From an uncultured Gammaproteobacteria bacterium (GTDB lineage Bacteria; Pseudomonadota; Gammaproteobacteria; GCA-001735895), in NCBI GenBank assembly GCA_947259305.1, contig CAMYML010000009.1, forward strand, positions 1 through 37,362: a stretch of 37,362 bases of DNA, in the 5' to 3' direction. The position numbers and the translations under genes were made by a program. This document shows, in pieces, positions 20,657 through 33,210 of this stretch. The number at the start of each line of letters is the position of its first letter. Position 1 is the stretch's first letter. The notes under the pieces are model-generated. The model saw only the letters and a list, made by a program, of their open reading frames with translations, was not told the DNA's origin and made no database searches.

Positions 20657-21688
20657 ATGCGTCACATCGGGATTTTTCTGAAAACCATCGGACTGGTCTT
20701 ATTACTGAACCTGGCGCTACCCGCCGGCGCCGCTGAAACCGCGACCCGCGGCAGCATTACCGGCGGTGTCGCACACGAGGCGCCAACCTGGTTCAAGGAA
20801 AGTTTTCTCGAAATCGCCGATGATGTCGACGATGCAACCGAGGCCGGCAAGCACGTCCTGCTGTTTTTCCAACTCAACGACTGCCCCTACTGCGACCGGA
20901 TGCTGGAGGAATGTTTCGAAGCCGAGCCGTTACGCAGCTATATTCAGCAGCATTTCGACAGTATTGCGATCAATGTCCGCGGCGACCGCGATATCGCGTT
21001 TAACGAAGAGATTTCGGTCACCGAAAAAGAACTGTCGGAAATCCTCAAGGTCGCGGCGACCCCGGCAATCCTGTTTCTCGACCAGGACAATAAGACCGTC
21101 GTGCGCGTCAACGGCTATCGTGCGCCCGCGCGCTTCAAACAGGTACTCGAATTCGTCGCCACCAAATCCTATCGGAGCACCAGCCTGGCCGACTACCTGC
21201 AGGCCAAACTCGACAAAAACGTTTACCAGTTGCGCGCCAATCCGTTGTTCACCGAGGTCAGGGATCTGTCCAGTATCGACGGCCCGCTGATGCTGATCTT
21301 CGAGGATGGCGGCTGTTACGACTGCAACGAATTTCACGACGGAATTCTGGGACACGAACTGGTGCGCAAGGAGATTGAGCCCTTCACCATCGTGCGGCTC
21401 GATGCCGATTCCCGGGAAACCATCATCGACGTTTACGGCAATCAAACCACGCCGGCCGAACTCGCCAGCAAACATGAAATGATTTATCGGCCGGGCGTGC
21501 TCGCTTTCGATGACGGCAACCTGGTGCGACGCCACGACAGTCTGACCTTCCCCCACCATTTCAAGGAAAGCATGCGTTACGTCGCCGGCGGGTTTTACCG
21601 GCAAACCGATTATCAAACCTACTCGCAGCAGCGCACCGAGGAGCTCCTCGCAGCCGGCGTCGTCATCGACCTCGGCCGCCCGAGGTAG
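20657..21688 (+). CDS. Periplasmic protein with two thioredoxin-like domains (SoxW/DsbD-gamma-like)
   Basis: RBS taaggagg before ATG 20657; signal peptide; domain 1 VLLFFQLNDCPYCDRML, TPAILFLDQDNKTVVRVNGY; domain 2 LMLIFEDGGCYDCNEFH. Confidence 0.82.
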   Translation: MRHIGIFLKTIGLVLLLNLALPAGAAETATRGSITGGVAHEAPTWFKESFLEIADDVDDATEAGKHVLLFFQLNDCPYCDRMLEECFEAEPLRSYIQQHFDSIAINVRGDRDIAFNEEISVTEKELSEILKVAATPAILFLDQDNKTVVRVNGYRAPARFKQVLEFVATKSYRSTSLADYLQAKLDKNVYQLRANPLFTEVRDLSSIDGPLMLIFEDGGCYDCNEFHDGILGHELVRKEIEPFTIVRLDADSRETIIDVYGNQTTPAELASKHEMIYRPGVLAFDDGNLVRRHDSLTFPHHFKESMRYVAGGFYRQTDYQTYSQQRTEELLAAGVVIDLGRPR

Positions 21689-22412: not shown

Positions 22413-24974
22413 ATGTCTCGAAAATTCCTGAGCGCTATCCTGGTGCTGACCCTGCTTGCGCTGGCATCGTTTAACGGCCAGGCCCAACTGTACAAGTGGG
22501 TCGATGAAAAAGGGAAAATTCATTATTCCGACAAGGAACCAGGAGAAGAGACCAGTACAAAAGTCATCCGCCGGGATCAGAACAGCGGCGGCCAGAACCA
22601 GCAGGCATCGACGACCTCGGCCAGGCCGGTTATTCGGCCTTACGAAAAAACCGCGCGCAAGCTGCACCTGCTCGATACCCGCTACCTGTGGAAGTCGGAA
22701 TCCCATGTCAATGAAACCACCAAAATCGGGGTCTTCCACAGCGGCAAGGGTTGCACCTCGCGCGGTGCGATGAACACACCGGATATTTTTGTCTATCACA
22801 AATCGCTGTTCCCATCCGAGTCCGACCTGACCTACCGCATCAACAAGATTATCAATGGTCTCGACTACGACTCCGAACGCACCGAAAAATATCGCCTGCT
22901 GGGGCGGCTGAAAAAAACCGGGGGCTTAAGCCTGCACGCGGAAATCGTAGCCATGGATTTCAACACCTGCGCCCCGGGAATCCGCAAGAGCGAGCGCCTG
23001 AAAAAAATTGAAAGCATTTCCACGCATCGGTTCACCAAGAACCGGGTCAAGCTGCAGGTCAACTGGCAGCTGCGCACCAATCGTGACCAGGACGTGGTCT
23101 ACGAAGTGACCACGGCGGGCAATTACAACGGCTGGAGCCAGTCGACGACTTCCAAAACCGCCATCGGCAACGCGCTGGAGTCGGCCGTGTTGGCGTTGTT
23201 TTCCGACCAGGCCTTTATCGCCCGCATCCTGGTCGAGGAAGACGGCAGCGGTCTCGACGATCTCCAGCACAGCAGCCTGCTGCCGATCAATTCGGATCAG
23301 AAAACCAGGACCCGCAAGTTATTCGTGGTTGCCGACGGCAAGGCCTGGATCAAGGACCAACAGTCGCAGGCTGAAATCGGGCAGCTGTTGTTCGGCGAAA
23401 ATTGCGCCGCCAAGAAACCCATGCCGCTCGGCGTCGCGCTGAATCATAAAAAATGGCTGGCCGCGGATGCCTACCGCGCCAGCGACGCGATCGTCAAACA
23501 GACCCGGCCGTTAGGATATTCGATCAGCCCGGCGAGCAGCGACGCGCTGACAAAACTCGAAAACTCGGGCGGCTACAGCCTCAATGCCAGGCTCGTCAGG
23601 CTTACCTACGACGCCTGCGCACCGTCGCTATCGGCGTCGACAAGATACAAACCCATCGACCAGGTCTCATTCAAATACCTGACCCGGAACCGGATTCAGG
23701 TCTGGGTCGAGTGGACGCTGAAAACCGACCGTAACAGCAAATTGCTGTATCGAACCAGCACCATGGGCTTTGCCGGCAGCCTGCTGACCGACAAGCGTGG
23801 CGAAGAAGCCATGTCGGAAGCCATCGGCATGGCGGCGGAGCAGCTGTTTGCCGATCGCGATTTTATCGGCTTGATTACCGTGAAACCCCGCGATCCGGCG
23901 CCGGCGCAAAGCTTTGCCGCAAAAGATAACTCGTCGGTGAAGGGGATTGTCATGGCGGGGAATCAGCAGGCAACGAAACTGATACTCGTTAGCGCAACCA
24001 ATCCCTGGAACCGTATTCCCGCGGATAAATCGGTGGGCTTCTACGCCTATGGCGCGGACTGCACGCCCTTCGAAGACCGCAGCTGGCCACAGACCCTGAA
24101 TGACCATCCGCGCATATTCCCGGACGCGGGCGAAATCATCAACGCCGAGTCAAAGGTGGTGAAAAGCCTCGGTTATCCGGCGCAGGTCGCCGATGAATAC
24201 AGCGTCGTCAGCATGAAGCGCAAACTCGGTGGTTACAGCCTGCATGCCGATATCGTCGATATACGCTTCGATTCCTGTGCGCCCGAACTCGACGAAGACA
24301 TCGTCTACTCCAAACGCAAAATATCCTCGAGCCAGTTTAAGCGGCACCGCGTCATCGTCAGGATTAACTGGAAGCTGGTCGGAGCCAGCGATGACCAGGT
24401 CCTGTACCAGAAGATGACCGAAGGCGTTGCCGACAGCTGGCTGTTGAACGCAAAGGGCAAAAAAGTGTTCAGCCTGGCGGTTGAAAATGCGACCTCGCAA
24501 CTGTTTGCGCAACCGGCGTTTGTCGCCAACCTGGTAACGGACGGGCAGCAGGAAGAGCCAGGGTTCTTCGGCAATCTGCTGTCGTTTCTGAACTCGCAGG
24601 ACGGCGCCGATTCAGATGCGGGTGCGGGCCTGACCAATCGGTTTGTGTTACAGGCGCATGCGGCCCAGGCCTTCTCCGAGATCAGCGTGCTCAAAGTCGG
24701 TGCGCTGCAACACTACATGATGGAAGGCGACTGGCCGGATAGCCTGCCGGCGATGGGCTATTCCGCTTCGACGTTCAACAATAGCGACACCATCTCGCAT
24801 GTAAACCTGCAGCCGGACGGCAGTATCGTGGTCGAGCTGAAAGAGATGTTCGGCGCTGACAAGATCATTACCCTGAATCCCGAAACCGACAATGGCGATG
24901 TCGGCATGAACCGCTGGCACTGCAGCAGCAATCTCGACTCGGCTTTCCTGCCACAGAACTGCGAAGGCCTGTAA
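22413..24974 (+). CDS. Secreted DUF4124-like N-terminal domain protein with three tandem repeats and a pilin-like C-terminus
   Basis: Signal peptide followed by QLYKWVDEKGKIHYSDKEPGE (DUF4124); three copies of GG[LY]SLxAxxV...CAP...R[VI]xVxxxWxL; C-terminus with HYMMEGDWPDSLPAMGY...WHCSSNLDSAFLPQNCEGL as in type IV pilin globular domains. Confidence 0.85.
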   Translation: MSRKFLSAILVLTLLALASFNGQAQLYKWVDEKGKIHYSDKEPGEETSTKVIRRDQNSGGQNQQASTTSARPVIRPYEKTARKLHLLDTRYLWKSESHVNETTKIGVFHSGKGCTSRGAMNTPDIFVYHKSLFPSESDLTYRINKIINGLDYDSERTEKYRLLGRLKKTGGLSLHAEIVAMDFNTCAPGIRKSERLKKIESISTHRFTKNRVKLQVNWQLRTNRDQDVVYEVTTAGNYNGWSQSTTSKTAIGNALESAVLALFSDQAFIARILVEEDGSGLDDLQHSSLLPINSDQKTRTRKLFVVADGKAWIKDQQSQAEIGQLLFGENCAAKKPMPLGVALNHKKWLAADAYRASDAIVKQTRPLGYSISPASSDALTKLENSGGYSLNARLVRLTYDACAPSLSASTRYKPIDQVSFKYLTRNRIQVWVEWTLKTDRNSKLLYRTSTMGFAGSLLTDKRGEEAMSEAIGMAAEQLFADRDFIGLITVKPRDPAPAQSFAAKDNSSVKGIVMAGNQQATKLILVSATNPWNRIPADKSVGFYAYGADCTPFEDRSWPQTLNDHPRIFPDAGEIINAESKVVKSLGYPAQVADEYSVVSMKRKLGGYSLHADIVDIRFDSCAPELDEDIVYSKRKISSSQFKRHRVIVRINWKLVGASDDQVLYQKMTEGVADSWLLNAKGKKVFSLAVENATSQLFAQPAFVANLVTDGQQEEPGFFGNLLSFLNSQDGADSDAGAGLTNRFVLQAHAAQAFSEISVLKVGALQHYMMEGDWPDSLPAMGYSASTFNNSDTISHVNLQPDGSIVVELKEMFGADKIITLNPETDNGDVGMNRWHCSSNLDSAFLPQNCEGL

Positions 24975-25107: not shown

Positions 25108-26277
25108 GTGAGCGCCAACGGATTCTTTTCCCGCATCGAAGCCTTCGACGAATTTGTCGAAATCGCGAATATCGACAATTACCTGACCGCACCGGATGAC
25201 TGGCATGTGGTCATTTCCGACGTCGAAGGTTCGACCCGGGCGATCGCCGAGGGACGCTACAAGGAAGTCAACATGATTGGCGCCGCCTGTATCAACGCGG
25301 TGCTGAACCTAACCGACAGCGGCGAGATTCCTTACGTATTCGGCGGCGACGGCGCCACCCTGCTGCTGCCGGCGCACAGGCTCGCCGACTGTGAACAAGC
25401 CCTGCTCGCGGTGCGCCGACTGGCCGAATCCGATTTTGCGCTGTCGCTACGCGTGGGCGTGGTTCCGGTCGCGGCCATCCATGCGCAAACCTCGGCGCGG
25501 GTCAGGGTCGGCAAATTCCGGCTCAGCCCGGGTAACGAGCTGGCGACCTTTTCCGGCGGTGGCATCGAACTGGCCGAACGCTGGATCAAGTCGAACCCCG
25601 ACTACCTGGTGCATCCGACGGCCGACGACGGCCCGCCGGATTTGAATGGGCTATCCTGCCGCTGGGAGCCACTGGCGTCACAGCATGGCGTCATGCTTAG
25701 CCTGCTGCTGCAGGCCGCCGCTGGCGCCGATGAAGCGGCAAGCGCGGCGCTGTACCGTGCGCTGATCGGCGACATCGAGCGCATTACCGGCAACCGAGAA
25801 AGCGGCGGCAAACCGGTAGCGGATGCGAACATGAAGTTTCGCTGGCCGCCGCGAGGGCTGCGCGCCGAGATCAAGGCTACCGCGGGTAAGCGCAATCGCT
25901 TCCGCTTCGGGTTAGGTCTGTACCTCAACAGCCTGATCCAGTGGGGCCTGGACCGATTCGATTTGACCGCGGGCGGTTACCGCGGCCGCAGGTACCGGGT
26001 CGAGCTGCGCCGCAACACCGACTACCGGCGTTTCGACGACACGCTGCGTATATTGCTCGATTGCAGCCTCGCGCAGGCCGACGAAATCGAAAATTTGCTG
26101 GAGACCCGCGCGCGCGAAGATGGGCTGGTTTACGGCGTACACCGTTCCGATTCGGCGTTGATGACCTGCCTGGTATTCAACCTCGAGCGCGGCGAGCATA
26201 TCCACTTCGTCGACGGCAGCGACGGCGGCTTCACCAACGCGGCGAAAATCCTGAAAGCAAAACTGAATTCCGGCTAA
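25108..26277 (+). CDS. DUF3095 domain protein with cyclase-like motifs (GTG start)
   Basis: DWHVVISDVEGSTRAIAEGRYKEVNMIGAACINAVLNL...YVFGGDGATLLLP, characteristic of DUF3095 proteins. Confidence 0.85.
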   Translation: MSANGFFSRIEAFDEFVEIANIDNYLTAPDDWHVVISDVEGSTRAIAEGRYKEVNMIGAACINAVLNLTDSGEIPYVFGGDGATLLLPAHRLADCEQALLAVRRLAESDFALSLRVGVVPVAAIHAQTSARVRVGKFRLSPGNELATFSGGGIELAERWIKSNPDYLVHPTADDGPPDLNGLSCRWEPLASQHGVMLSLLLQAAAGADEAASAALYRALIGDIERITGNRESGGKPVADANMKFRWPPRGLRAEIKATAGKRNRFRFGLGLYLNSLIQWGLDRFDLTAGGYRGRRYRVELRRNTDYRRFDDTLRILLDCSLAQADEIENLLETRAREDGLVYGVHRSDSALMTCLVFNLERGEHIHFVDGSDGGFTNAAKILKAKLNSG

Positions 26278-31257: not shown

Positions 31258-31355
31258 GTTTTATTGTCCGTGGGTTTAGCGTAAATCGGGGATGAACCAG
31301 GTTTTTCGTTTTTGAGAAAAACCTGTCCCGTTCCCCTGTATATTCCTATTGCAAC

Positions 31356-31487
31356 GAGTCATACCCGCACAAGCGGCTTTCCTGCAAAAAAAGCATGTCA
31401 GTTGCTTCAAGATCCCCGCTTTCGCGGGGATGACAGCCTTCGGCTCAAGATTCCGATACTTCGGACCACCGCTTACGCGGGAATGAC
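31356..31487. repeat. REP-like intergenic cluster
   Basis: gtcatacccgcacaagcgg, caagatccccgctttcgcggggatgacag, caagattccgatacttcggaccaccgcttacgcgggaatgac. Confidence 0.7.
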
Positions 31488-31530
31488 TCTTCATTCGTCA
31501 GTCAGATGCACACTAATCTACCCCCTTTTT

Positions 31531-33051
31531 TCAGGGATGGAAGCTAACCTCCCGCTGGCTGATTTTTTCGGCCCAGATCTTCGGCCCGGTCTGATGTATC
31601 GATTCGCCGCTATGGTCGACGGCGACGGTAACCGGCATATCCTCGAGCGTGAATTCGTAAATCGCTTCCATGCCCAGTTCAGGGAAGGCAACCACCTCCG
31701 CGCGCTTGATCGCCTGCGCCACCAGGTAGGCCGCGCCGCCAACCGCCATCAGGTATACCGACTCGAAATCGCGGATCGCCTCGATTGCGCTGGGTCCGCG
31801 TTCGGCCTTGCCGATCATGCCGAGCAAGCCGGTCTGTTCGAGCAGGGTGCGGGTGAACTTGTCCATGCGCGTCGCGGTGGTGGGACCCGCCGGGCCGACG
31901 ACCTCGTCGCCAATCGGATCGACCGGGCCGACATAGTAGATAAAGCGGCCTTTCAGATCGACCGGCAAGGCCTCGCCGTTGGCGAGCATGTCGACCATCT
32001 TTTTGTGTGCGGCGTCGCGCCCGGTCAGCATCTTGCCGGAGAGCAGCAGCGTATCGCCCGGTTTCCAGGTCTTGACCTCGTCATGCGTCACCGTATCGAG
32101 GTTGACGCGCCTGACGTTGTCGCCGGTTTCGCGCGTCACTTCGGGCCAGTCTTCCAGCTTCGGCGGCTCGAGTTTCGCCAGGCCGCTGCCGTCGAGCGTG
32201 AAATGCGTGTGCCGCGTCGCGGCGCAATTCGGAATAATGGCAACCGCCTTGTTGGCCGCGTGCGACGGGTAGTCTTTCACCTTGACGTCCATCACCGTGG
32301 TCAGCCCGCCGAGCCCCTGCGCGCCGATACCGAGCCGGTTGACCTTGTCATAAAGCTCGAGACGCAGCTCTTCGGCGCGGTTGCTGGCGCCTTTTGCCTG
32401 CAGGTCATGGATATCGATCGGCTCCAGCAGCGCTTCCTTGGCCAGGATCATCGCCTTTTCGGCGGTACCGCCGACGCCGATGCCGAGCATGCCGGGCGGG
32501 CACCAGCCGGCGCCCATCAGCGGCACCTGGCCGAGCACCCAGTCGACGACCGAGTCGGAGGGATTGAGCATCGCGAACTTGGACTTGGCTTCCGAGCCTC
32601 CGCCCTTGGCGGCGACGTGCACCTCGAGCGTGTCACCCGGCACGATTTCGTAGTGGATTACGCCCGGGGTATTGTCGCCGGTGTTTTTACGCGCGCCGTC
32701 GGGATCGTCGAGAATCGAGGCACGCAGCACGTTATCCGGGTTTTGATAGGCGCGCCGAATCCCCTCGTTGCACATGTCGCTAACCGACATGTCGGCCTCC
32801 CACTGCACCTGCATGCCGACGCGCAGAAACACGGTGACGATACCGGTGTCCTGGCAAATCGGACGGTGCCCCAGCGCGCACATGCGCGAGTTGATCAGGA
32901 TTTGCGCGATCGCGTCGCGCGCCGCCGGGTTTTCCTCGCGCCGGTAGGCTTCATCCATGGCGCGGATGAAATCCAGCGGATGGAAATAGGAAATGTACTG
33001 CAACGCATCGGCGATGCTATCGATCAGGTCGTTCTGTTTGATGACGGTCAT
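31531..33051 (-). CDS. Class I (iron-sulfur) fumarate hydratase
   Basis: ALGHRPICQDTGIVTVFLRVGM, KGGGSEAKSKFAMLNPSDS, GIGVGGTAEKAMILAKEALL, VGPAGPTTATRMDKFT; single fused polypeptide. Start at MTVIKQNDLIDSI. Confidence 0.93.
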   Translation of the reverse strand: MTVIKQNDLIDSIADALQYISYFHPLDFIRAMDEAYRREENPAARDAIAQILINSRMCALGHRPICQDTGIVTVFLRVGMQVQWEADMSVSDMCNEGIRRAYQNPDNVLRASILDDPDGARKNTGDNTPGVIHYEIVPGDTLEVHVAAKGGGSEAKSKFAMLNPSDSVVDWVLGQVPLMGAGWCPPGMLGIGVGGTAEKAMILAKEALLEPIDIHDLQAKGASNRAEELRLELYDKVNRLGIGAQGLGGLTTVMDVKVKDYPSHAANKAVAIIPNCAATRHTHFTLDGSGLAKLEPPKLEDWPEVTRETGDNVRRVNLDTVTHDEVKTWKPGDTLLLSGKMLTGRDAAHKKMVDMLANGEALPVDLKGRFIYYVGPVDPIGDEVVGPAGPTTATRMDKFTRTLLEQTGLLGMIGKAERGPSAIEAIRDFESVYLMAVGGAAYLVAQAIKRAEVVAFPELGMEAIYEFTLEDMPVTVAVDHSGESIHQTGPKIWAEKISQREVSFHP

Positions 33052-33210
33052 GATTTGCTGCTTCGTTTGGACTGTGGTGTATTTTATCCGCATAACCCTC
33101 AAACACCATAATAAGAATGCTCAATGATCGCGCCAGCAAAATTTACTCTGAGTAAATATTGTAGGTTGGTGCCGCGGTATGACAGATTTGTTCTAGTCCC
33201 TGGAATCGGT

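Follow-up and report, generated by a model that had tools for sequence, protein, structure and literature searches.

The window analysed here, a stretch of 37,362 nucleotides, contains an ORF at 22413-24974 (+) that encodes 853 aa and was recovered exactly as described in the first-pass annotation. The product starts with a Sec-type signal peptide (aa 1-24, MSRKFLSAILVLTLLALASFNGQA; 22413..22484, +), which was assigned by eye from the sequence and ends in GQA. A DUF4124 match (PF13511, E 2e-8; 34.8 bits against a curated cut-off of 22) covers aa 14-58 (22452..22586, +), with the mature part beginning at LYKWVDEKGKIHYSDKEP. Three repeat units come next: unit 1 (aa 79-278; 22647..23246, +) with C114 and C186, unit 2 (aa 294-498; 23292..23906, +) with C331 and C402, and unit 3 (aa 516-715; 23958..24557, +) with C550 and C622. 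A linker (aa 716-747; 24558..24653, +), delimited by alignment to prepilins and to relatives, carries the semi-conserved aromatic stretch PGFFGNLLSFL and leads into a pilin head (aa 748-850; 24654..24962, +) with the D-loop cysteines C837 and C850. The head matches the Pilin family PF00114 (37.8 bits against a cut-off of 22, E 3.9e-9), and relatives also score above this cut-off. The composite architecture proposed earlier, with a DUF4124 start, three internal repeats and a pilin-like C-terminus, thus stands, both Pfam domains passing their curated cut-offs. Residues 1-113 are free of cysteine, the first being residue 114, and the ORF sequence contains no lipobox cysteine after the signal peptide, the mark of the outer-membrane lipoproteins of the unit's fold (CsgG, PelC, LptE and HpaA). 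The product would be best explained as an exported, soluble periplasmic protein. Matches of the protein to hydroxylamine-reductase and phage RBP families were sub-threshold noise, and a defence-system library search gave no matches.

Directly downstream, at 25108-26277 (+), lies a gene for a DUF3095 protein (E 2e-120), whose function is unknown according to Pfam; the two genes also adjoin in the Olavius algarvensis Gamma3 symbiont. Further along, a 599-aa ORF at 31312-33111 (+) has a counterpart of 57% identity in genome G030 and no Pfam match at E 0.01. An ispH-minor-pilin cluster was sought in the window and not found; DUF6279 and DUF1232 genes come after ispH.

The three units are clearly homologous. 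Pairwise identity is 27-28% over 185-195 aa (BLASTP E 6e-22 to 7e-30), and the Smith-Waterman scores of 188-241 compare with 30 +/- 5 in 500 shuffles (maximum 55), which places them 31-43 s.d. above the shuffled sequences. Of the features quoted earlier for the repeats, the motif rows lie at aa 170, 386 and 606; the GxxC cysteines upstream of them, which bring each repeat to two conserved cysteines, lie at aa 114, 331 and 550. The earlier unit spans (22659-23232, 23312-23880 and 23972-24536) hold as approximations and are replaced by the limits given above. As far as sequence goes, the earlier statement that the repeat belongs to no named domain is right: a Pfam/NCBIfam scan of the units returned no family above its cut-off, and hence no strong match to an existing Pfam family. 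The closest sequence family is Pfam LptE (PF04390), which remains sub-threshold for the whole protein (22.2 versus 23 bits) and matches 4 of 24 units with a best E of 0.016; the unit relates to LptE by fold and is not a PF04390 member. In a PDB sequence search, the unit profile found only chance matches, mostly to ribosomal eS8 (E 0.09), and a broader unit alignment found none.

An AlphaFold2 model of unit 1, built from a 7-row alignment of units from the window and related loci, reached a pLDDT of 83 and a pTM of 0.83 and shows a CsgG/FlgT/LptE-like alpha/beta arrangement. A Foldseek search of the PDB gave 25 chains at E <= 0.001 (probability about 1.0), almost all of which belong to a single class. 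HpaA and its homologue are at the top (E 4e-6 to 6e-5), followed by CsgG and FlgT (both E 1e-4), by Cj1090c, PelC and DUF330 (E 3e-4 to 1e-3), and by LptE (E 2e-3); the CsgG, FlgT, PelC, DUF330 and LptE set lies mostly between E 1e-4 and 4e-3, with match probabilities of 0.96-1.00. The entries compared were 8t8d, 3bgh, 4uv2, 3w1e, 5t11, 2iqi and 5iv8. TM-scores between the unit 1 model and known structures are only about 0.35-0.55, so the likeness is at the level of fold. On the model of this one unit, the repeat is assigned to the CsgG/FlgT/PelC/LptE-like fold group; its predicted fold is already known and its sequence family is new. In a viral structure library, the one match below E 0.001 was a pyrophosphatase, next to a weak match to a CsgG-named phage protein and partial ERF/Rad52-like matches. 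The full-length model is poor (pLDDT 45), with a tail at pLDDT 70-83. Equivalent folds in all three units, one point raised by the first-pass annotation, are predicted by the model for unit 1 and by sequence homology for units 2 and 3; nothing found argues against equivalence.

The cysteines form an unusually regular pattern. Across 23 units from three architectures, the only invariant columns are C36, C108, W140 and L184 (unit-1 numbering). The mature window protein has eight cysteines, as do five of six three-unit orthologs examined; single-unit forms have four and protease fusions two, which amounts to exactly two per unit throughout plus two in the pilin D-loop. The sole exception is the O. 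algarvensis protein, in which one D-loop cysteine is missing. This pattern is as expected of one disulfide per domain: we strongly infer a C36-C108 bond within each unit and a further bond that closes the pilin D-loop. Upstream, at 20657-21688 (+), an exported-looking protein with thioredoxin-like domains and CPYC and CYDC motifs could be a periplasmic disulfide enzyme. Its gene adjoins the repeat-protein gene in the window and in three orthologs. An operon of the two genes was considered because of the unit disulfides and was rejected, the thioredoxin-like gene being absent from the region examined in the O. algarvensis symbiont genome (G029) and from the loci of genus g3.

Aligned to true pilins, the pilin head still has the latter half of the helix as well as the sheet and the D-loop WHC...LPQNC, and C837 and C850 align with the D-loop cysteines of the fimbrial protein chains 1hpw and 1qve. 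The tail of the low-confidence full-length model has the Neisseria meningitidis major pilin (4v1j) as its top match (probability 1.00, TMt 0.55). Aligned to true prepilins, the head has no hydrophobic alpha1-N, no prepilin-peptidase site (G|F) and no E5. Without this N-terminal helix and cleavage site the head cannot polymerise as a pilin, and judged by signal and helix the protein is not a functional type IV pilin. The linker stretch PGFFGNLLSFL, a similar version of which is present in relatives, aligns opposite GFTLIELMIV of true prepilins; speculatively, it may be a vestige of the prepilin signal.

Pilin heads occur in other settings in these genomes. Four loci (G000:C11:7383-7694, here L165, with L176, L154 and L164) encode PF00114 domains that keep their hydrophobic helix but form part of longer proteins. 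In L165, L154 and L164 these are joined by TM2-like membrane segments and a CRxCGA...CPxC motif resembling a zinc ribbon; such proteins are not ordinary pilins. The secreted-looking products of L155:814-1797 and L181 carry collagen-like GPP repeats and, behind them, a tandem pair of pilin heads that lack the polymerising helix, a further soluble pilin-head architecture.

The window's own genome has one copy of the repeat-protein gene. Its order is represented in the sample by a single family of 41 genomes, and the gene was found in 10 of these, absences being blurred by the draft state of the genomes. Full-length three-unit relatives occur in six other genomes at 42-81% identity. The closest sequenced ortholog is that of the O. 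algarvensis Gamma3 symbiont (81%); others are in G007, G002 and G030, with a fragment in G020, and a second genus contributes those of G038 and G036 (42-43%). These relatives and the low dN/dS argue against an assembly quirk. In G037 and G040, one unit lies between DUF4124 and the pilin head, and single-unit proteins with a pilin head are also present in Pleionea and three relatives within its family, so that the association of unit and pilin is kept in three-unit and single-unit forms and in two distant families.

A further architecture, of about 500 aa, joins DUF4124 and one unit to a trypsin-like protease (Trypsin_2, E about 1e-32) with an apparently intact triad (TNQHVV / GRDVALL / GNSGGP). 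It was found in G003, G006, G013, G016, G020, G029, G030 and G034 and, outside the order, in G407 and G444; a match in G404 lies in a 501-aa frame, similar in length to the protease-type proteins. The unit in these fusions is the same domain (hmmsearch E down to 1e-17, hhalign probability 98.9). Loci L116, L117, L118, L119, L120, L128, L140, L141 and L150 are uncatalogued members of this protease family. The earlier question of whether single-unit as well as multi-unit versions exist is therefore answered in favour of both, with protease-fused versions in addition. Among 369 genomes sampled evenly across the class, the unit profile had no match beyond the window's own genome, and one further genome matched the protease-type profile; within this sample the family is therefore narrow.

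The history of the repeat was read from a maximum-likelihood tree of 35 units. All unit 2s form one group (100/99) across both genera, as do all unit 3s (95/90), which places a single triplication before the two genera split. The unit-1 clade (98/100) includes the single units of G037 and G040, whose proteins have therefore probably lost units 2 and 3. The single units of the Pleionea group lie outside, as an ancestral form would; several of their branches are long and the order is unsure. All domains are under purifying selection with dN/dS about 0.1 (0.13 between the window and O. algarvensis Gamma3, 0.10 for another ortholog pair), and values by domain range from 0.06 to 0.25 and are low in each unit.

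What might such a protein do? The reading we favour, still tentatively, is that of a periplasmic protein that serves an outer-membrane machine, most likely the type IV pilus, as a docking or scaffold factor. The three units would form a rigid arm packed against the outer-membrane complex, by analogy with the role of the unit fold in CsgG, PelC, FlgT and LptE; PelC, for example, forms a ring in the periplasm that sits on its outer-membrane barrel (PMC12141448). The C-terminal head would present a pilin surface to its partners without entering the filament. With the pilus machine as the most likely partner, the protein could be an accessory factor that aids docking or stability from the periplasm, in a role comparable to that of TfpC, a DUF4124 protein that N. 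gonorrhoeae requires for the maintenance of its type IV pili (PMC7593972), or of TsaP, an accessory protein that stabilises the type IV pilus secretin (PMC10653833); homology to either is not implied. A bolder version, which we regard as unlikely, has the soluble, non-polymerising head on its three-module CsgG/FlgT-like arm dock on the type IV pilus machine as a built-in pilin mimic and there gate or stabilise the assembly of pili; in other proteins, the module would aim an HtrA-like protease at the same site.

The suggested pilus link derives from domain content rather than from gene neighbourhood. Conserved synteny with pil genes was not found around the orthologs, whose neighbours vary by lineage, and only G038 has a nearby gene for a PilT/PilU-like T2SSE-family ATPase, about 2.8 kb off. 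A PilQ secretin model matches all 41 family genomes (36 above cut-off, the window's genome included), which makes co-occurrence of pilin and secretin uninformative; since the repeat-protein gene is found in only 10 of them, it is dispensable for pili. The PF00114 heads with zinc ribbons and membrane segments or with collagen-like repeats indicate that having a pilin head does not by itself imply a function in pili. The absent pil neighbourhood, the patchy gene and these other heads keep the pilus scaffold at a tentative grade and leave a more general envelope role as a possibility. The pilQ-like gene of the O. algarvensis symbiont (G029:C2:1144467-1145716) comes up as two matches, and a TAG interrupts one of them, which points to a possibly broken secretin or to an assembly error.

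That general role, possible but doubtful, would be in envelope quality control or ligand binding: the unit would be a general periplasmic binder of polypeptide, peptidoglycan or lipid, joined to an HtrA-type protease or to a pilin head, and the window protein its non-catalytic form, an adaptor in protein quality control or the stress response. The unit with both invariant cysteines between DUF4124 and Trypsin_2, the apparently intact triad and the presence of ligand binders such as LptE among the CsgG-fold relatives are all consistent with it. However, protease and pilin versions co-occur no more than expected by chance (3 of 41 genomes with both, Fisher p 0.38), so the two forms are not obligate partners, and the pilin head is left unexplained.

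A surface adhesin or symbiosis factor, whose pilin head would be the knob that attaches to host or sediment surfaces, is rather improbable. This analogy draws on the top fold match, the adhesin HpaA (PMC10936181), and on the symbiont origin of the closest sequenced relative, but adhesion by HpaA sits in an apical extension distinctive of Helicobacteraceae (PMC10936181). The missing lipobox leaves no obvious surface anchor, all units have a dN/dS of about 0.1, lower than one would expect of an adhesin exposed at the surface, and Pleionea and its relatives also have the single-unit form. Least probable is an accessory to, or substrate of, type II secretion, in which the head would mimic a pseudopilin and work with the T2SS secretin: pseudopilins and pilins are related, and each genome has several more secretin-like genes that match the secretin profile at lower scores, but PF00114 is the type IV pilin family with a D-loop disulfide and no pseudopilin model, and no T2SS genes lie nearby within the window.

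The ORF combines known parts in a new way and adds one new sequence family within a known fold; the original finding is correct, and the gene is under-annotated rather than revolutionary. The family has no Pfam or NCBIfam entry, and its fold recurs among outer-membrane assembly machines. Its history is simple (one module, one triplication, later losses and one protease fusion), and its cysteine signature is unusually clean. A soluble, non-polymerising pilin head offers a natural way to learn which components of the pilus recognise the surface of a pilin, and the single-unit relatives in the genus Pleionea open the family to testing.

Compared with HpaA, CsgG, FlgT, PelC, DUF330 and LptE, the unit has the predicted alpha/beta fold and the envelope location in common at a sequence identity of only 8-14%. 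Unlike these proteins, the window protein carries three tandem copies per chain, a conserved pair of cysteines predicted to form a disulfide, and no lipobox. TfpC and other DUF4124 proteins likewise place DUF4124 behind an export signal, whereas TfpC is about 147 residues long when mature, has a coiled-coil C-terminal domain and contains neither repeats nor a pilin head. The HtrA-like fusion proteins share DUF4124 and one unit with both cysteines, a serine protease domain replacing the further units and the pilin head. With the type IV major pilin (PF00114), the window protein has the head in common, including the WxC...LPxxC D-loop; it differs in having a Sec signal peptide at the far N-terminus and no polymerising helix.
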